Shown here: one piece after another, positions 8,436 to 52,222 of the stretch
How positions within the stretch are numbered: position 1 is the first letter of the stretch
Layout of the letters: the number at the start of each line of letters is the position of its first letter
Source of the DNA: an uncultured Rubrobacteraceae bacterium
GTDB taxonomy: Bacteria; Actinomycetota; Rubrobacteria; Rubrobacterales; Rubrobacteraceae
Assembly (NCBI GenBank): GCA_902806085.1
Contig: CADCVH010000087.1
Coordinates: 1 to 64,000, forward strand
Length of the DNA stretch: 64,000 nt
Reading direction: 5' to 3'
Notes under the pieces: generated by a model
What the model saw: the letters and a program-made list of their open reading frames with translations, nothing else
Database searches by the model: none
Told to the model about the DNA's origin: nothing
Program-made: the position numbers and the translations under genes

Positions 8436-9140
8436 ATGCCGAAAAAGAGAACCGGCGCCAAACTGGGCGCAAAGGCCGGGGCCAGGGTAGCCCCCCGGGC
8501 GGGCAAGCTCGCCGGCAAGGCGGCGCTAAAGGCGGGCAAGAGCCAGGCGAAGCTCGCCCGGGCCGCCGCGAGCTCCAGCGAGCCCGCCCCGTCCCGCTTC
8601 CTCAAGTACGGCCTCTTCGCGCTGGCAGGCCTCGCGATTGGCGCGCTGCTTTCCCGCTCCAGGGGCGGTAGCGACCCGTCCTTCACCGGCACGACCGGGC
8701 AGCACGCCCCCGACCCCGACAGCCCCGCGGGCCAGCGCGGCGAGACCTGGGGCAGCGGCACGCCCACGGGCACGGCCGGGGGCACGGCCGGGGGCACGGC
8801 CGGGGGCGGCGGCGCCCACCAGAGACCGGACGACCCCAACCGCACCGGGTCCGAGCGCGACTACTCGGACCCCGGCTCCGGCCCCCTCATCGGTGAGCGC
8901 CACCGCGGGAGCGTCGCCGGCGTCGGCGAGTCCCAGGAAGAGGTCGAGCAGCGCATCCGCACCCGCATAGGCGAGGACCCGCGCACCGCGGCCATGCCGC
9001 GGGTCAACGTAGAGGTAACCGACGGCGTCGCGGAGCTGCGAGGCCCCGCCCCCTCCCAGGAAGCCAGGGAGGCCGCCGGCGAGATCGCCGCGAACGTCGA
9101 AGGCGTAACCGAGGTGCGCAACCTTATCGTCGTAAGCTAG
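8436..9140 (+). CDS. BON-domain protein with lysine-rich N-terminus and one membrane helix
   Basis: Residues 1-48 are lysine/alanine-rich, residues ~56-72 (KYGLFALAGLAIGALL) form a membrane helix, residues ~75-150 are Gly/Ser/Thr/Pro-rich and disordered, and residues ~165-234 form a BON domain ending in VEGVTEVRNLIVV. BON domains occur in osmotic-shock and envelope proteins and bind lipids. The basic tail faces the cytoplasm by the positive-inside rule. The linker contains a perfect triplicated 12-bp repeat. The gene ends in a strong hairpin terminator. Role: probably an envelope-stress protein. Confidence 0.75.
   Translation: MPKKRTGAKLGAKAGARVAPRAGKLAGKAALKAGKSQAKLARAAASSSEPAPSRFLKYGLFALAGLAIGALLSRSRGGSDPSFTGTTGQHAPDPDSPAGQRGETWGSGTPTGTAGGTAGGTAGGGGAHQRPDDPNRTGSERDYSDPGSGPLIGERHRGSVAGVGESQEEVEQRIRTRIGEDPRTAAMPRVNVEVTDGVAELRGPAPSQEAREAAGEIAANVEGVTEVRNLIVVS
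8769..8804 (+). repeat. 12-bp unit in three perfect copies
   Basis: GGCACGGCCGGG is repeated three times in tandem inside the BON gene and encodes a GTAG repeat in the disordered linker. Three other genes in this window carry similar 12-bp triplications. Confidence 0.9.
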
Positions 9141-9178
9141 CCCGCCGGCCAGCCACTTGCCGGCCCGGTCCGAAGAAC

Positions 9179-9214
9179 GGGAGCGCCCCCGCCGAACCCG
9201 GCGGGGGCGCTCCC
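9179..9214 (+). terminator. Strong intrinsic-type terminator after the BON gene
   Basis: GGGAGCGCCCCCGCCG (9179-9194) pairs perfectly with its complement at 9199-9214 around an AACC loop: 16 base pairs, followed by GACTTTCGG. It may also stop the small minus-strand gene at 9280. Confidence 0.85.
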
Positions 9215-9279
9215 GACTTTCGGTTTTTCTCCCACAGGCCACAGGCGGTTGCTTGGGCCGACACCTTTGCGGGACGGGC

Positions 9280-30200: not shown

Positions 30201-30557
30201 GCGGAGCCGCGTTGCTGGCGGCGGTCCTGGTGCTTTCCGCCTACTGCGCGCTGGTCGCGCTCGTTGTGGCGTGGGTCTTGATCTACTGGTTCCCCGCCTA
30301 TCCGACCAATCCGGTCCTCCAAAAGGTCTACGACGTCGTGGATCGCGCCGCCGGGCCCATCATGCGTCCCATAAGGCGCCTGATCCCGACGGTGAACCTG
30401 GGTGGGGGGCTTCGCCGTGGACCTGTCGCCCATACTCGTCCTCCTGGCCCTCTCCGGCGCTCGGGGGCCGCTCCTTGGGCTTACCGGCGGCTTCGCGGGC
30501 CCCGGGATCGCGAGAACGGGTAAGACCGAACTACCCAAACGCGTGCGGACAAGATAG
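30197..30557 (+). pseudogene. YggT-family membrane protein, frameshifted in a G run
   Basis: GTG 30197 overlaps the phosphatase stop by 4 nt. The N-terminus (LSAYCALVALVVAWVLIYWF) and NPVLQKVYDVVDRAAGPIMRPIRRLIPTVN match YggT proteins. After GGTGGGGGGC at 30401-30410 the frame is off by one; removing one G restores FAVDLSPILVLLALS, the second YggT segment. YggT proteins contribute to membrane organisation and osmotic tolerance in many bacteria. Confidence 0.75.
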
Positions 30558-30577
30558 CAATCTAGAGAGGAGAAGCA

Positions 30578-30948
30578 GTGGCAGGAAGATTGGGCGGCAG
30601 GCTCGCGAGGTTTCTGTGCGAGAAGCTGGACGATCCGAGGAGCCGAAAGGCCGCACGCAAGGCGCTGCGGAAAGTCACCGGCGAGGAGCCGAGCCGCCGC
30701 ATGGCAGGGGATGAGGGGCGACCCACGGGGCGACCCACGGGGCGACCCACGGCGACTATATCGCGGGGCTCGGTGCGATCGAGGTCGGTGACCGGGCCGG
30801 CTTCGAGCTGCGAGATCGGTTGGCCGAGGCGCTGAAGCTCTACCCTCGCGACGCCGAGCTCCTCGACGGCGCCCTCGGGCAGGCCCTCGCGCAGTACGAC
30901 CTCAGGACGCTTCCAGACCCAGAGGGGACGTCCCCCGGCGTGAGGTGA
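30578..30948 (+). pseudogene. Unknown protein with 12-bp repeat expansion and shifted frame
   Basis: GTG 30578 has an AGAGGAGAAG site. The first 45 residues are charged (CEKLDDPRSRKAARKALRK). A tandem 12-bp repeat then encodes GRPT units, after which the good-looking frame is different: DYIAGLGAIEVGDRAGFELR, LAEALKLYPRDAELLDGAL and on to TGA 30948. The junction lies at the last repeat copy, so repeat slippage may have broken the frame. No family is recognised. Confidence 0.45.
30717..30752 (+). repeat. 12-bp unit in three perfect copies
   Basis: GGCGACCCACGG is repeated three times and followed by a partial CGAC. It coincides with the frame break in the surrounding gene. Confidence 0.9.
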
Positions 30949-31180
30949 GGAGGCCAGGGGTGGCAGGAAGGCAAGGGGTACCCGGGGCGGTCCGACCGGG
31001 AGCGGTCCGGTGGGCGCACGGGCGTACGGAGACGCTACCCCGGGTCAGCTACCCCGGGTCAAAAAGGCCGCCGCCGCGGGGGCGCCCGGCGTGACCGCCA
31101 GATTATGGCCGCCAAACGCAAGAACTCACGGGTCTCCGCCACGTTCGGCGGTACATCCTCGCGATACGGCGTGGGGGCCG

Positions 31181-32449
31181 TCAGGCGTTCGCGGGGAGGG
31201 TGAGGGCGAACACCGCTCCTGGGCGATCACCGGGGTTGTTGCCCGCGGTGAGGTCGCCGCGCTGGGCGCGGGCGAGGTCGCGGGCTATGGCGAGCCCGAG
31301 GCCCGTGCCGCCACCTTTGCGCGTGCGGGCCTCCTCCGCGCGGTAGAAGCGCTCGAGGATGCGCGGGAGGTGTTCCGGGGGGACGCCGGGGCCCGTGTCC
31401 GAGACGGAGGCCTCCGCCGCGCCGTCCAGCGCCCGTCCCGAGACCGTCACGGTGCCGCCCTTGGGCGTGTGGCGCACGGCGTTGTCCAGAAGCGCGGCGA
31501 GGATCTGGCCCGTCCGCGCCGCGTCGCCGCGGACGAGGAGTTCCGATGGGAGCGAGATCTCCAGCCGGATCTCCTCGGCCGCCGCCCGCTTGAGGAACCG
31601 CTCCGCGGCCTCGCCCGCGACGACCGAGAGGTCGAAGGGCTTGTTCTCGACCTCCAGCCTGCCGGAGTCGAGGCGCGCGAGCAGGAGCAGGTCCGAAAGC
31701 AGCGCGTCCATGCGGTCGATCTCGGAGAGTTGGTCGTCCACGATCTCGCGGTTGTCGGGGGTGGTCGGGTTGCGCCGGATCTCCTCGGCGTTGACCTTCA
31801 CCAGGGCGAGGGGCGTCTTGAGCTCGTGGGAGGCGTCTGCGACGAAGTCCCGCTGCCTCTGAAAAGCCTCCCTGGCCGGGCGCATCGCGTTGCGAGACAT
31901 GTACAGCCCCCCCACCGCCGATAACGCCAGGGCCACGAGGCCCGCGGCGACGAGCACCGCGACCAGGCGCCAGACGGTCTCCCGGACCACGGCCCTGGAC
32001 TGGGCGGCCTGCACCACCGCCATGACCTCGCCGGTCTCGTCGTCCAGGGGCGCGCTAACGACCCGCACGGCGCCGTCGGACCCGCCGTCGACGGTCCCGT
32101 GGTTCGGCTTCTTCTGCAGGGCCGCGTCCCGGGCGAGCTCCTCGTAGGGCAGCCCGAGGGAGGAGCTCGAGTCGCCGAGGCTCAGGGCCCTGGCGGCGAT
32201 GTCTCCGTCGGGCGGGACCGCGACAACGGCGATGTCGGATGGGGTCTTCGCCTTGGTACCCCCGTACTTGTCGCCGCCGCTCAGGTATATCTCGGTCTCG
32301 GCCTTCGCCTCCTGCATGAGGGCCTTGTCCTGCTGCTCCGTGACCGAACGCTCGAAGAACACCACCACGATCGCACCGAAGAGCACGAGAATCAGGGCGA
32401 GGATACCCGCGTATCCGAAGGTGAGGCGCCTCCTGATGCGGTCGAGCAC
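31181..32449 (-). CDS. Sensor histidine kinase
   Basis: The 422-residue protein has membrane helices at ~10-32 and ~170-192 around an extracellular domain of ~135 residues, then HisKA with DFVADASHELKTPLALVK (phospho-His near residue 220) and an HATPase domain with DNAVRHTPKGG, SDTGPGVPPEHLPRI and [11 protein letters not shown]. It lies 3 bp after the response regulator. It faces the MoxR gene train, which it may control in response to envelope stress. Confidence 0.9.
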   Translation of the reverse strand: MLDRIRRRLTFGYAGILALILVLFGAIVVVFFERSVTEQQDKALMQEAKAETEIYLSGGDKYGGTKAKTPSDIAVVAVPPDGDIAARALSLGDSSSSLGLPYEELARDAALQKKPNHGTVDGGSDGAVRVVSAPLDDETGEVMAVVQAAQSRAVVRETVWRLVAVLVAAGLVALALSAVGGLYMSRNAMRPAREAFQRQRDFVADASHELKTPLALVKVNAEEIRRNPTTPDNREIVDDQLSEIDRMDALLSDLLLLARLDSGRLEVENKPFDLSVVAGEAAERFLKRAAAEEIRLEISLPSELLVRGDAARTGQILAALLDNAVRHTPKGGTVTVSGRALDGAAEASVSDTGPGVPPEHLPRILERFYRAEEARTRKGGGTGLGLAIARDLARAQRGDLTAGNNPGDRPGAVFALTLPANA

Positions 32450-42256: not shown

Positions 42257-42416
42257 AGCAAGCACCGCGACGAAGATCCGGAGCGGGCGCGGCGCCGGCG
42301 CGGCGCCGGCGGGGTCCTCCGGGGCCGTGGACAAGGGAGTAGACTCGTGGTCACTCCACAGACTAGGACATAAACCCCGGGCTCTGTCGGTAAGTTGGTG
42401 AAAGGGGTGTTGCCCG

Positions 42417-42914
42417 TCAGTCGGCTCCGATGGCTGTCCGTAGGTCCTCCACGAACCGCCGCAACACCTCCGGGCCGTAGGTGAACTCCGCGGTGTCCCT
42501 CGCACGGCGGAAGTCTATGGGTCCTTCCTCGTAGGGGTCGCCCACGTAGCGCGGGAGGAAGTGGGCGTGGAGGTGCGGCATCGTGTTGCCGTGGATGTCC
42601 ACGTTTATCTTCACGGCCCCGGTCACCTCCTGCAGAGCACGCGAGGTGCGGCGCATGTCGTCCATGAGCAGGGCCGCTTCCTCCTGCTCCAGATCGTGGA
42701 GCTCGACGGCGTGGCGGTTGAGGACCAGGCAGCAGTAGCCGCGGAAGGGCGCGCCCTCCTCGGTGGTGAGCCTGCTGGCCCCCATCTCGGCTATGACGAC
42801 GACCTCGGGCGGCTTGTGGTCTCCGCAGAGGTCGCACGCCTCCCCGCTCAGAAGCGCCCGCCACCTCTCGGAGTCCCTCCAGGGTCTCCCGTACAACTCC
42901 GGCCTTTCGCTCAC
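42417..42914 (-). CDS. HIT-family protein carried inside the ISL3 element
   Basis: The product shows the HIT triad near the middle: IHGNTMPHLHAHFLPR (H-x-H-x-H with HLHAH). An N-terminal CDLCGD may bind zinc, and the fold matches diadenosine tetraphosphate or phosphoramidate hydrolases. GTG 42914 is preceded by GGGAGGG at ideal spacing. It lies between the left inverted end and the divergent transposase, so it travels with the element. Confidence 0.8.
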   Translation of the reverse strand: MSERPELYGRPWRDSERWRALLSGEACDLCGDHKPPEVVVIAEMGASRLTTEEGAPFRGYCCLVLNRHAVELHDLEQEEAALLMDDMRRTSRALQEVTGAVKINVDIHGNTMPHLHAHFLPRYVGDPYEEGPIDFRRARDTAEFTYGPEVLRRFVEDLRTAIGAD

Positions 42915-42964
42915 GTGCCCTCCCTTTACCGCCGCCATGCCCGAGACAAGAAAGGTAGCAACCC

Positions 42965-44604
42965 GTGGGCAACGCCGCATCCCGACGCCTCCTCCCGGAG
43001 GGCCTCGCGGTCACCGGTCTCCTGGCCGAACCGCACGGCCTGAGGATCCGAGCCACGACCGAAACCCCGCGCGCCCGTTGCCCGGCGTGCGGTAGCTACT
43101 CCGCGAGGGTCCACAGCCGCTACGGGCGGCCGTCGCCGACCTGCCCTGGCGGGGGCTGGCTGTAAAGCTGGAGATCCGCGCCCGCAAGTTCTTCTGCGAC
43201 GGGGCCTCGTGCGAACGCAGGATCTTCTGTGAGAGGTTGCCCAACGTCGCCGCTGGCGCCCGCAAGACGGACCGGCTCGAAGAGGCGCTCCTGGCGATCG
43301 TGCTGGAGCTGGGCGGCAGGGGCGGCGCCAGGCTCGCCGCCGAACTGGGGCTTCTCGTCGGCCGCGACGTCCTTCTCTCTCGGGCCAAACGCGCCGCTCC
43401 GTCCGACGCGGGAGAGGTGCGGGTCCTCGGCGTGGACGACTTCGCCTTCAGGAAGGGCAACGCCTACGGCACCATCCTCGTGGATCTGGAGCGCCGCAAG
43501 GTGGTGGACCTGCTGCCCGATTGCTCCCAGGAAAGCCTTTCGACGTGGCTGGAACGGCACCCGGGGGTGGAGGTGGCGACGCGCGACCGTTCCCGGGTCT
43601 ACCGCGAAGCCCTGGACAAAGGCGCGCCGGACGCCGTGCAGGTGGCCGACCGCTGGCACCTGCTGCGGGGCCTCGCGCTGGGCCTGGAGGAGTTCTTGCT
43701 CCGGAAACGCCCGGCCCTGCGAGGAACGGTCCCCGGGGCGGGAGACGGTGTGCCGGAAGTAGGCGTCGAGGTGTCGGACCCCGCCAGCCGGCCTGGGAGC
43801 TGGCGGGCGCGCAAGGAGGAGGCCGCGAGGCAGCGCCTCGAGCGCCTCGTCGAGCAGTGGCGAGACATCCGCCGCCTGCACCTCGCCGGGGCGGACGTGC
43901 GCTTCATCGCAAGGAGGCTCGGGGTGGGCGCCCGCACCGTCTACCGCTACAGGGAGCTCGAGGAGCCCCCGCCACGTCGGACGTACACGACCAGGGCGAG
44001 CGTCCTGGACCCGTTCGTACCGTACCTTCTGGAACGCTGGGAGGAGGGCTGCCGCGACGGCAAGCGGCTGCTCCGGGAGATCCGGGAGCGGGGCTACGCC
44101 AACAGCGAGAGGACCTTCATCCGCTTCACGGCGGAGCTGAGGCGCGCGGAAGCGGCGGGTAAGCCGCCGTCTTCGACGCCCAGGGCCAGGAAGGGATCGG
44201 TGGCGGGGCTGTCTCCGACCGCGAAGAACGTGGCCGCCCTGTTCATGCGCCGCGAGGAGAAGCTCTCCGAGGAGCAGAAGGAATACCTGGGGAGGCTGTG
44301 CTCCTCCGACGCGGCTTTGGCCGACGCCCGCCGGCTCACCCGGGAGTTCGCGGGGATGGTCAGGGGCCTTGAAGGAGAGAAGCTGGACGGTCGGCTCGCC
44401 GAGGCCGGTACCTCGGAGGCCGAGGTGATGAGGAAGTACGCCGCCGGGCCGAAAAAGGACCTCTCGGCGGTGAGAGCGGGACTCACGGAGGAGTGGAGCA
44501 ACGGGCCCGTCGAGGGCTTCGTCCACAAGCTGAAGCTCGTGAAGCGCCAGGGCTACGGGAGGGCGGGCTTCGACCTGCTGAGGGCGAGGGTGCTGGCAGC
44601 TTAA
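42965..44604 (+). pseudogene. ISL3-family transposase, frameshifted near 43127
   Basis: From GTG 42965 the N-terminal zinc-finger reads RARCPACGSYSARVHSRYGR; a missing base near 43127 shifts the frame and the protein continues as LAVKLEIRARKFFCDGASC, FCERLPNVA and the DDE part from 43237: VLGVDDFAFRKGNAYGTILVDL (Asp1), VATRDRSRVYREAL (Asp2) and EEWSNGPVEGFVHKLKLVKRQGYG (Glu). The restored protein is ~546 residues. ISL3 members do not normally use programmed shifts, so this copy is probably inactive or mis-sequenced. Confidence 0.85.
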
Positions 44605-44681
44605 CCACCGCCGCGACGGCGGTCAGATGGAAGACGCGTGGCTTTCACCAAGAAGCCGACAGAGCCCGGGGTTTATGTCCC

Positions 44682-44872
44682 AGTGTGGTACGCAGCGGTC
44701 CAGACCATAGCGATGCCGTTCGGCCTTTCGTGGATACTCGCCGCCTCGATTACGTATACGAAAGTGCCGAACTTCGTGAAATTGGCCTACTATGCAATAC
44801 CGCTCACGCGAGGTTGGCTCCTGGGCGCCTCGAGCGGGCCGTGGAAGGGTGCAGCGCCCCTTGTTTTGGTGG
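44682..44872. other. Short intergenic spacer between ISL3 and the recombinase operon
   Basis: No gene or strong hairpin is supported. It is the flank that received the ISL3 right end. Confidence 0.4.
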
Positions 44873-45982
44873 CTAGCCGTCGAAGTGGTGGGGGACGTGC
44901 AGGTGGCTCGCGGCCCGTCGCATCGCCCTCTCGCCGCGCCTGTCGTAGCGGGCCGTGGTGGAGGGGTCCGCGTGGCCGGCGAGCTTCTGCGCGACCGAGA
45001 GGTCGCCGACGGCGTCCAGGAGGTCGCCCACGAAGGTCTTGCGGAAGTCGTGGGGCGAGATCTCCTTGACGTTCGCCTCCCTGTGGCGCCGCTTGACCAT
45101 CTTGTAGACGGCCTGGTCGGAGAGCGAGGCCTTCTTCTCCCCGTACGGGTCCGAGCGCTCGACCCGCCCGTCCTTCCTGACGGGCAAAAAGAGCGGGTCG
45201 TCGGGCTCGCCGTCGCCGCGCAGTTCCAGCCAGCCGCCCAGCAGCAGGTCGGCGCCGCCCTCTGCGTAGACGGGCCTCTCCTTGTTGCCCTTCCCGCGCA
45301 CGCGCAGCGTCCCCGTCTCCGGCTCGTAGTCGCCGAGCCTGAGGGAGGCGAGCTCGGTCCGGCGGAGGCCGCCGACGTAGAGCAGCGCCAGCATCGCGGC
45401 GTCCCTGATACCGCGGGCACGCATCTTCGGGTCCTCGGCCTCCCTTGCGCACACCGCGAAGAGCGCGGAGAGCTCTCCGCGCGGTATGGAGCGCCCCGGC
45501 GGGAGGCGCGTGCCGCGGACCGGGGCGACGTCGGAGGCCCGATCGCGCTCGTCGGCGGTCATGAGCCCGAGCCTGAAGCTGGCCTTGAGCACCCCTTTGA
45601 GGGCGGAGAGCATCTTATTGGCCGTGGAGGGCGCGTACTTTTCGGCGAGATAGCCCCGGATGATCGCCGTGTGCGTGCCGGTGAGCCGCCACCAGGGGAA
45701 CGAGAGGGCATCGAGGTGGACGACCCTGCCGTCGGGTCCCTCGCGGCGGGAGGCGACCGCGGCGATCTCCTCAAGCGAGCCGCGCATGGTGCGCCTGGAC
45801 CCTGCAGAGAGCCTCCCCAGGTAGGAGAGGACCGGGTTTTCTTCCCCGACGAGAACCTCGTCGGCAGGAGCGAGCGCCAGGACGGGGGCCGGCAGGACCT
45901 CCGGCGCCGCCAGCAAGGCCGGGTCGGACGGCGCTCGCCCGTCCAGGTCGACGTTCGAAGCAGCGTTCACGGCGTCGCTCAC
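44873..45982 (-). CDS. Tyrosine recombinase/integrase (XerC/D type)
   Basis: The 369-residue protein has an N-terminal SAM-like domain (~45-140) and a catalytic domain with Arg207 in GGLRRTEL, Lys near 231 in VRGKGNKERP, His311 and Arg314 in SPHDFRKTF, His337 in LAGHADPSTT and the nucleophile Tyr346 in TARYDRR. All active-site residues are present. ATG 45982 overlaps the stop of the DUF5615 gene by 4 nt, so it is the third gene of a toxin-antitoxin operon. It could integrate or resolve the element it sits in. Confidence 0.9.
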   Translation of the reverse strand: MSDAVNAASNVDLDGRAPSDPALLAAPEVLPAPVLALAPADEVLVGEENPVLSYLGRLSAGSRRTMRGSLEEIAAVASRREGPDGRVVHLDALSFPWWRLTGTHTAIIRGYLAEKYAPSTANKMLSALKGVLKASFRLGLMTADERDRASDVAPVRGTRLPPGRSIPRGELSALFAVCAREAEDPKMRARGIRDAAMLALLYVGGLRRTELASLRLGDYEPETGTLRVRGKGNKERPVYAEGGADLLLGGWLELRGDGEPDDPLFLPVRKDGRVERSDPYGEKKASLSDQAVYKMVKRRHREANVKEISPHDFRKTFVGDLLDAVGDLSVAQKLAGHADPSTTARYDRRGERAMRRAASHLHVPHHFDG

Positions 45983-46302
45983 GGCAGGCGCGTCGCCTTC
46001 CCCGGCGGGGCCGACCGGATCTTTTCGAGGCCGCCCTCCACGATCGGGGCGGTGTCCCGAAGGCGCGTGCTGCGGGCGGCCAACGACACGACCGCCACCG
46101 CGTGGCGCGAGAGGTTCTGCTGGCGGGGGATGCCCTTGTCGACGGTTACCAGGGCGTCGAAACCCTCCCCCTCCATCAGCGCCAAAAGCTCCCCGTTCTT
46201 CTTGCCCTTCCAGCCCCGCCCGGCGACCGTCTCCACCCCGAAGCCCTCCCCGAAGAACCGGCCGAGCCGCCAGTCCAGCTGCTCATCGAGCAGAACCCGC
46301 AA
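45979..46302 (-). CDS. DUF5615 PIN-like toxin
   Basis: The 107-residue protein begins MRVLLDEQLDWRLGRFF and has GFDALVTVDKGIPRQQNL, the acidic residues of the PIN-like DUF5615 fold (Mut7-C/PIN related RNases). It overlaps the antitoxin by 20 bp and the recombinase by 4 bp. DUF433-DUF5615 pairs are predicted type II toxin-antitoxin modules, with this protein as the nuclease. Confidence 0.8.
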   Translation of the reverse strand: MRVLLDEQLDWRLGRFFGEGFGVETVAGRGWKGKKNGELLALMEGEGFDALVTVDKGIPRQQNLSRHAVAVVSLAARSTRLRDTAPIVEGGLEKIRSAPPGKATRLP

Positions 46303-46516
46303 GGTCGACGGCCTCCTCGACGGCCTCCGGGGTCATCTTGAGGTAGGCAACCGCCTGCTCGCGGCCCACGGTCGGGATCGCCTCCAAAAACTCGTCCAGG
46401 GAGTCGCCGGCGGCCAGGTACTCCACCAGCACCTCGACTGGGACGCGAGTGCCCGCGAAGACCAGCGCCCCGTTCATCACCTCCGGGTCGCGCGATACTA
46501 TCCCCGTCGCCTCCAT
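46283..46516 (-). CDS. DUF433 antitoxin
   Basis: The 77-residue protein has GIVSRDPEVMNGALVFAGTR and PVEVLVEYLAAGDSLDEFLE, the defining DUF433 winged-helix pattern, and pairs with DUF5615. It should bind DNA and its toxin and repress its own operon. A 36-bp palindrome lies 56 bp upstream of its ATG. Confidence 0.85.
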   Translation of the reverse strand: MEATGIVSRDPEVMNGALVFAGTRVPVEVLVEYLAAGDSLDEFLEAIPTVGREQAVAYLKMTPEAVEEAVDLAGSAR

Positions 46517-46571
46517 CTCTCCACCTCCGCTCCACTATCATTGCGACGTGCAGCCACATCCTAGCACAGCC

Positions 46572-46607
46572 TTTCGGTTCCGAGAATGACGATTCTCATA
46601 ACCGAAA
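46572..46607. repeat. 36-bp near-perfect palindrome upstream of the TA-recombinase operon
   Basis: TTTCGGTT-CC-GAGAAT-GACG-ATTCTC-AT-AACCGAAA is a two-step dyad with only the inner dinucleotides mismatched. It may be the antitoxin operator or a core site for the adjacent tyrosine recombinase, whose family binds such inverted arms. Confidence 0.75.
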
Positions 46608-46688
46608 TTGCGCGCCGACAGGCCGTGTGCCCGCGCCCAAGAGGAAACCCGAGCGCGATAGCTCCCAGTTCGCTGGTCCGGACGCGGG

Positions 46689-52174: not shown

Positions 52175-52222
52175 TATTCACCCAACCTCGTAGAAAGGGC
52201 CTTCTACGAGGTTGGGTGAATA
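52175..52222. repeat. 48-bp palindrome with 21-bp perfect arms
   Basis: TATTCACCCAACCTCGTAGAA at 52175-52195 is the exact reverse complement of 52202-52222 around AGGGCC. It lies between the two kinase-cyclase pairs, about 225 bp upstream of the first kinase start. The word TATTCACC also begins other repeats in the window. Confidence 0.85.

Follow-up and report, generated by a model that had tools for sequence, protein, structure and literature searches.

A toxin-antitoxin (TA) pair followed by the gene of a site-specific recombinase is an arrangement known from the F plasmid, in which ccdA, ccdB and the recombinase gene abut on one strand. According to PMC5065971 ccdAB lies upstream of resD in F, and PMC4398462 describes for pEC958, the RepFIA of which is 99 % identical to that of F, rfsF sites and oriV-1 before ccdAB and resD after it, and names resD as a multimer-resolution gene. 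Among the single-recombinase Xer systems described in PMC5357621, xerS and xerH adjoin their sites, and the same source gives the E. coli dif site as 11-6-11. The DNA analysed here, hereafter called the window, is a stretch of 64,000 nucleotides from an uncultured Rubrobacteraceae bacterium (assembly GCA_902806085.1, contig CADCVH010000087.1, positions 1 to 64,000), and it carries at 44873-46607 an operon predicted to encode a DUF433 antitoxin, a DUF5615-like toxin and a tyrosine recombinase, headed by a palindrome. Judged by comparison of sequences, the locus is probably a single-recombinase, Xer/dif-like multimer-resolution module, with the TA pair inserted between the recombination site and the recombinase gene.

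The features of the locus are:

46593..46607, minus strand: left half-site TTTCGGTTATGAGAA of the predicted recombination site, an arm conserved among relatives whether or not they have the TA pair
46587..46592, minus strand: 6-bp centre TCGTCA, predicted crossover region, variable among 10 Rubrobacteraceae sites
46572..46586, minus strand: right half-site TTCTCGGAACCGAAA, reverse complement TTTCGGTTCCGAGAA, with 2 positions unlike the left arm
46558..46563, minus strand: -10-like hexamer TAGGAT with upstream TGC (extended -10), putative promoter, 8 bp past the right arm
46283..46516, minus strand: predicted DUF433 antitoxin, 77 amino acids (PF04255, E 1.5e-16, above the cut-off)
45979..46302, minus strand: predicted DUF5615-like (PIN-like) toxin, 107 amino acids, TTG start (PF18480, E 0.001, below the cut-off)
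44873..45982, minus strand: tyrosine recombinase, 369 amino acids, GTG start (PF00589, E 6e-26)
44858..46607, minus strand: unit common with plasmid 3 of R. radiotolerans, 86.4 % DNA identity

The antitoxin and toxin genes overlap by 20 nt and the toxin and recombinase genes by 4 nt, in agreement with the first-pass annotation of this DNA, and these overlaps suggest that the three proteins are co-translated. A DUF433 antitoxin gene directly 5' of a PIN-like toxin gene is the order of the DUF433/DUF5615 (VapBC-like) type II TA systems; DUF433 was predicted as the antitoxin of PIN toxins in PMC2701414, and a DUF433-PIN pair of pSYSG is counted among TA systems in PMC4963859. The window toxin scores 19.4 bits with PF18480 (DUF5615), below the cut-off of 23.8, and a relative in locus L045, 49 % identical to it, scores above the cut-off (38.1 bits, E 1.5e-9). 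The window toxin is also 42 % identical to a protein of the Synechocystis plasmid pSYSG annotated as DUF5615 PIN-like, and it would be expected to be toxic. In the recombinase the expected R, K, HxxR, LxGH and Y stretches are all present, which we take to be the complete tyrosine recombinase active site that had been claimed for it. The palindrome, reported earlier as a two-step palindrome upstream of the operon, spans 36 bp in two arms at 46572-46607 and ends 55 bp upstream of the antitoxin start; 14 of its 16 arm positions pair around 4 bp.

The first-pass annotation had suggested searching genomes for the three-gene order and for the palindrome, and both recur, together with the overlaps, on plasmid 3 of R. 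radiotolerans and in the metagenome-assembled genome of an uncultured Rubrobacteraceae bacterium (L005/L051); neither is unique to the window contig. On plasmid 3 of strain RSPS-4 (circular, 51,047 bp) the genes are found at 30414-30647, 30628-30951 and 30948-32042 with the same overlaps, and the antitoxin, toxin and recombinase are 94, 84 and 87 % identical to the window proteins. The corresponding values in the metagenome-assembled genome are 91, 87 and 86 %, and the overlaps are kept. DNA homology to plasmid 3 covers 44858-46607, from the palindrome's outer edge to a point shortly after the recombinase stop codon, and that to L051 extends over 44782-46608 (84.7 % identity). The upstream flanks of the three TA loci are unrelated to one another, and in their alignment an extended -10-like sequence, TGCTAGnAT, is kept in all three. 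Downstream of the intact operon, L051 contains the remnant of a second recombinase C-terminus (8834-8953), 62 % identical over 40 amino acids. No paper on the three-gene order or on the site was found in searches of one open-access library.

A survey of 39 genomes of the family identified full-length relatives of the recombinase (E<=6e-93) in 12, and a two-arm site lies upstream of the recombinase in nine of these. In a tenth genome, G007, the site is at the end of another contig, and no site was found upstream of the recombinase in G013 and G029. A strong match to the site is present in G013 (L046, contig C77, position 3079); it is on the minus strand near the other end of the 3.2-kb contig, 2.6 kb from the recombinase start in the downstream direction. 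Three of the 12 genomes have the TA pair in the interval from site to recombinase; G007 and G013, with only 214 and 430 bp of contig before the recombinase, are not judgeable in this respect. The arms of the window site are TCGGTTATGAGAA and TTCTCGGAACCGA; relatives without the TA pair have an upstream site of the same 13-6-13 form, the commonest arms of which are TAGCTTATGTAAA and TTTTCGCAAGCTA. Nine genomes supplied ten Rubrobacteraceae sites, of which that of G021:C174 adjoins a broken recombinase gene. No two of the ten have the same 6-bp centre; its inner 4 bp are the most variable, and its first and last bases agree in six of the seven sites of the type without the TA pair.

With up to 2 mismatches allowed, the pattern TTATGWRAADNNNNNTTYTCRSAA matched 32 times in the 39 genomes, compared with 7 matches for a reversed control pattern, and one site each was found in the window's own genome, G010 and G011. 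Each of the nine matches with zero mismatches is single in its genome, eight being beside the recombinase and the ninth being the split-contig case, G007. There are four places with one mismatch, and two of these adjoin a broken or truncated recombinase (G021:C174, G036:C77). The matches with two mismatches are mostly away from recombinases and chance-like, with the exceptions of G002 and G012:C19.

A weight matrix made from the ten Rubrobacteraceae sites was used to scan 300 bp upstream of 22 distant recombinases and, as controls, 600 bp upstream of 18 less related Xer-like Rubrobacteraceae recombinases, presumed to be chromosomal. Compared with shuffled sequences, z exceeded 4 upstream of 9 of the 22 distant recombinases, from Abditibacteriota, Chloroflexota, Bacillota, Cyanobacteria and another actinobacterial family (Chloroflexota 9.0, Abditibacteriota 8.6, Thermaerobacter 6.7, the other actinobacterial family 6.6, Nostoc 6.3, Gloeothece 5.6, Halotia 5.5, Tolypothrix and Anabaena cylindrica 4.3), and upstream of none of the 18 controls, in which the highest value was 2.1. 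Two of the three other DUF433 matches in the window's own genome were also scanned for the site, and neither these, nor a DUF433-DUF5615 stretch of pSYSG, nor the F ccd region has a site above shuffles.

Whole loci, mostly from plasmids, were also scanned with a matrix of the ten training sites only, none of which was among the 25 loci; G013, in which the recombinase is 430 bp from the contig start, and the nine training loci with an intact recombinase were left out. In 18 of the 25 loci the best match lay upstream of the recombinase at a distance of at most 350 bp, with 1.8 expected, whereas for the less related Xer-like recombinases it was so placed in 2 of 18, with 3.3 expected, 650 bp being allowed in these controls, the starts of which are less sure. 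The plasmid loci had been taken from match lists (20 of 40 listed, 2 of 60 listed and 2 of 8 listed). That the palindrome belongs to the recombinase rather than to the TA pair is thus well supported, and so is the role of recombination core that had been proposed for it, since, on plasmids from several phyla, the palindrome accompanies the recombinase whether the TA pair is there or not; the operator role proposed at the same time is possible only, as a second role.

The weight of this claim lies in the conservation across loci and not in palindrome statistics on single sequences, which are weak, many relatives having p>0.1. The window palindrome by itself is mildly unusual within the 250 bp upstream of the antitoxin (p=0.04), palindromes of equal quality occur as 8 matches at 4 places in the window compared with 22 matches in 40 shuffled windows, and a repeat search of the window (seed 9) did not list 46572-46607. 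The window scan also showed two other strong palindromes, at about 9178-9215 and 52180-52217, both fully paired (16 of 16 arm positions). A repeated regulator box was considered and ruled out, as GAGAATNNNNATTCTC is found, at up to 1 mismatch, at one place in the window's own genome.

In a tree of 43 recombinases the window recombinase belongs to a clade (support 97/99) with 35 members, 22 of them from the plasmid collection, that is apart from the less related Xer-like Rubrobacteraceae proteins and from F ResD. The three TA-bearing recombinases form one clade (support 100/100), beside which stand eight Rubrobacteraceae recombinases; six of the eight have the other arm type upstream, the site of G007 is on a separate contig and none was found upstream in G013. 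Relatives at E<1e-40 are present in 1489 of 72,556 plasmid records, and a survey of the phylum found relatives at E<=1e-50 in 13 of 396 genomes, 12 of the 13 in Rubrobacteraceae. Viral contigs, searched with short peptide patterns of one query, gave no recombinase relative. On two cyanobacterial plasmids, L093 (record annotated circular) and L118 (record annotated linear), a member of the same recombinase family has as neighbours another tyrosine recombinase gene and one for a telomere resolvase/protelomerase.

The two near-complete genomes that carry the recombinase, G010 (3 contigs) and G011 (4 contigs), have it on contigs that match circular plasmids of R. indicoceani and R. radiotolerans in length, and in each the site occurs once genome-wide. 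PMC4148983 describes the three plasmids of RSPS-4.

A TA pair and then a tyrosine recombinase gene, abutting or overlapping on one strand, is the gene arrangement of the ccdAB-resD type, and the window operon has it. The first-pass annotation had not recognised the arrangement; F, with ccdA, ccdB and a recombinase gene in a row, is a precedent, so that the type is already known and the window version is built from other parts. The window operon contains DUF433 and DUF5615-like genes and not homologues of CcdA/CcdB and ResD, and the F-type system differs also in having two rfsF sites and oriV-1 before ccdAB, as described in PMC4398462. Close kinship of the window recombinase to ResD was ruled out, the match covering 41 amino acids (E 2e-4 in the 43-sequence comparison) and the protein lying outside the ResD clade; F ResD is a long branch in the tree and its exact place is unsure. 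As neither the recombinases nor the other parts are close relatives, the likeness to rfsF-ccdAB-resD is probably convergent. A six-gene operon of Salmonella pSLT, compared here by its description in PMC5065971, also has a putative resolvase gene, rsdB, co-transcribed behind a TA pair, ccdAB, but with two other genes in between and a TA pair of another family.

Two imperfect arms around a centre of 6-11 bp, beside the recombinase gene, are the form of a single-recombinase Xer/dif site as defined in PMC5357621, and it is this form that the window site has, with the TA pair placed between site and gene. According to the same source the XerS/difSL and XerH/difH systems consist of a single recombinase of about 355 amino acids, a length like that of the window protein, with the site beside its gene, and the left arm of the window site, GTTATGAGAA, is close to the left half-site of difH, AGTTATGAAAA. 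These systems differ from the window locus in having no TA pair between site and gene, and the window recombinase scores low to both recombinases (56.9 bits with the XerS model, below its equivalog cut-off of 267; E 2e-4 to XerH in PDB), many of its relatives being on plasmids. In vapBC10 of Synechocystis (PIN-COG2442/DUF433), as reported in PMC3834315, a DUF433 antitoxin and a PIN toxin form a TA pair shown to work, which differs from the window operon in being a two-gene operon, the antitoxin of which activates its own promoter. The pdif modules of Acinetobacter hold TA pairs adjoining Xer sites and are flanked by such sites, on which the XerCD of the host acts. The window locus has a recombinase of its own and one site, the only one in its genome within 2 mismatches, and in this it does not have the two flanking sites of a pdif module or excisable unit.

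In the multimer-resolution reading, the palindrome would be the core site of the operon's recombinase, with a 6-bp crossover region flanked on each side by one of two unequal half-sites, 13-15 bp long. The recombinase would bind both arms. Within a multimer it would recombine one copy of the site with another, identical one by strand exchange at the 6-bp centre, and so bring the replicon back to monomers. In the TA-bearing clade the DUF433/DUF5615 pair would have entered the interval from site to recombinase gene, and a single promoter next to the site would serve antitoxin, toxin and recombinase. Since the TA pair would penalise loss of the replicon, the whole may be a maintenance cassette combining multimer resolution with addiction. 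As the extended -10-like sequence is 8 bp past the right arm, a recombinase at the site would be expected to hinder transcription of the three genes, and the bound recombinase, or the antitoxin, may damp the operon.

Several observations weigh against this reading. The window contig (80,477 bp) contains lgt, which is the genome's only copy, and genes for a penicillin-binding protein, a sigma factor and an HtrA-like protein, the last of these identified by eye. When 21 plasmid proteins (RepA, ParA, 18 others of plasmid 3 and a partial TrfA) were compared with the contig, an S8 peptidase alone matched, and no relatives of the replication and partition proteins RepA, ParA and partial TrfA were found. 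The window copy is therefore probably chromosomal, and plasmid resolution is hardly its present task; the stabilisation by a TA pair that had been proposed earlier fits the plasmid copies, as stabilisation of a replicon. The cassette was perhaps captured from a plasmid. Moreover, the TA pair between site and recombinase was seen in three genomes of one family, and for two one-mismatch sites, G012:C23 and G033:C299, there is no recombinase match on the contig. In the whole-locus scan the site was not the best match in 7 of the 25 loci (Gloeocapsopsis, Stanieria, IncY, IncC, G. citriformis, Nonomuraea and G029), and scores were low in 3 of the 18 positive loci (Chloroflexota ZRK35, Scytonema and Gloeocapsa 7428). 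The 350-bp limit was set after an earlier scan, the matrix of which had included some of the 25 loci; the loci are not independent, many being cyanobacterial, and as the distant loci are mostly from the plasmid collection, the plasmid homes are partly a matter of sampling.

A further reading, to which we give a small chance, adds that the site is both crossover site and operator, so that the bound recombinase would set the levels of antitoxin, toxin and recombinase together. Release of the recombinase during recombination or on loss of the replicon would then allow the cell to sense the multimer state, or the loss, through one DNA element; such a design would have arisen independently of F rfsF-ccdAB-resD and could persist on a chromosome. 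The F recombinase represses its own operon.

It is unlikely that the recombinase is instead an integrase and the palindrome its attP, recombining with a chromosomal attB, the cassette being, or having been, an integrative element that carries a TA pair. The probably chromosomal place of the window copy would agree with this, as would the start of the DNA homology to the plasmid copy at the outer site edge and the orphan one-mismatch sites of G012 and G033; no second site within 2 mismatches is, however, present in the window's own genome, G010 or G011, and no chromosomal att match or att duplication was found within 1-2 mismatches of the patterns tried, divergent att sites being outside the scope of the patterns. 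The recombinase-mobilised unit of the first-pass annotation is not supported, there being no second site within 2 mismatches in the window's own genome. The orphan sites lie at position 2936 of L107 (G012) and position 591 of L108 (G033), and the latter is a nearly perfect palindrome.

Very unlikely, in our estimate, is a palindrome that serves as operator of the TA operon only, bound by the DUF433 antitoxin or the TA complex, with the recombinase a passenger whose site is elsewhere. The -10-like hexamer 8 bp past the palindrome and the antitoxin start 55 bp downstream would suit an operator, and the DUF433 antitoxin VapB10 binds its own promoter region (PMC3834315), but similar sites lie upstream of recombinases without this TA pair in several phyla, and the two DUF433 loci of the same genome and the pSYSG stretch, which have no recombinase of this family, have no site. 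An equally low probability is given to a site used in the transcriptional control of the recombinase alone, recombination taking place elsewhere or not at all: the TA loci have -10-like hexamers at the right arm or close to it, and in L012 a TATAAT begins at the arm's end, yet the unequal conserved arms around a variable 6-bp centre have the Xer/dif form given in PMC5357621, and the active-site stretches are kept in the recombinase.

In several relatives the module has toxin genes in its vicinity. G020 has a DUF433/DUF5615 pair (66 and 48 % identical) that diverges from the recombinase gene; the site lies in the interval and a PIN gene further out. A MazE-like/PIN pair in G012 (L053) is likewise divergent with the site in between. 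A PIN gene ends just upstream of the site in G025 (L011), genes for DUF1778 and GNAT proteins are upstream of site and recombinase on a Gloeothece plasmid (L089), and on a Chloroflexota plasmid (L091) 9 bp separate the end of a Fic gene from the recombinase downstream of it. Nearby toxins are thus not rare, and what is special here is a pair between site and recombinase in overlapping frames. That TA pairs and recombinases, both common on plasmids, share an operon by chance and without function as a unit, as the other toxin families beside the same module (L053, L011, L089, L091) might suggest, is the most improbable explanation, since three genomes, unrelated in their upstream flanks and 84-94 % identical in the proteins, all retain the gene order, both overlaps (20 and 4 nt) and the site. 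On plasmid unnamed8 of Nostoc sp. UHCC 0302 (L114) DUF433 and DUF5615 genes are followed on the same strand, about 230 bp downstream, by a gene for a 189-aa site-specific integrase; this was rejected as the same system, its recombinase being of another lineage and no matching site being present, and is a parallel case only.

An ISL3 element lies 185 bp beyond the recombinase. This ISL3-family element (42359-44687) has 46-nt inverted repeats, 87 % complementary, around a transposase gene (43237-44604), and it also encloses a HIT-domain gene (42417-42980), perhaps a passenger; the transposase has four further matches on three other contigs of the genome. In an empty-site comparison with G020 and G021, homology of the left flank stops near 42.3 kb, and the homology of the right flank is on another contig. 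The cumulative GC skew of the window peaks at 44-47 kb. Genes are mostly on the plus strand at about 33-44 kb and mostly on the minus strand at about 45-58 kb, and the skew peak may only reflect this direction.

With these comparisons a large family of plasmid recombinases gains a predicted recombination site that can be read from the sequence in several phyla. The operon would be a second, apparently independent case in which a TA pair is built into the operon of a probable multimer-resolving recombinase, and it makes testable whether addiction and multimer resolution are selected for co-regulation.

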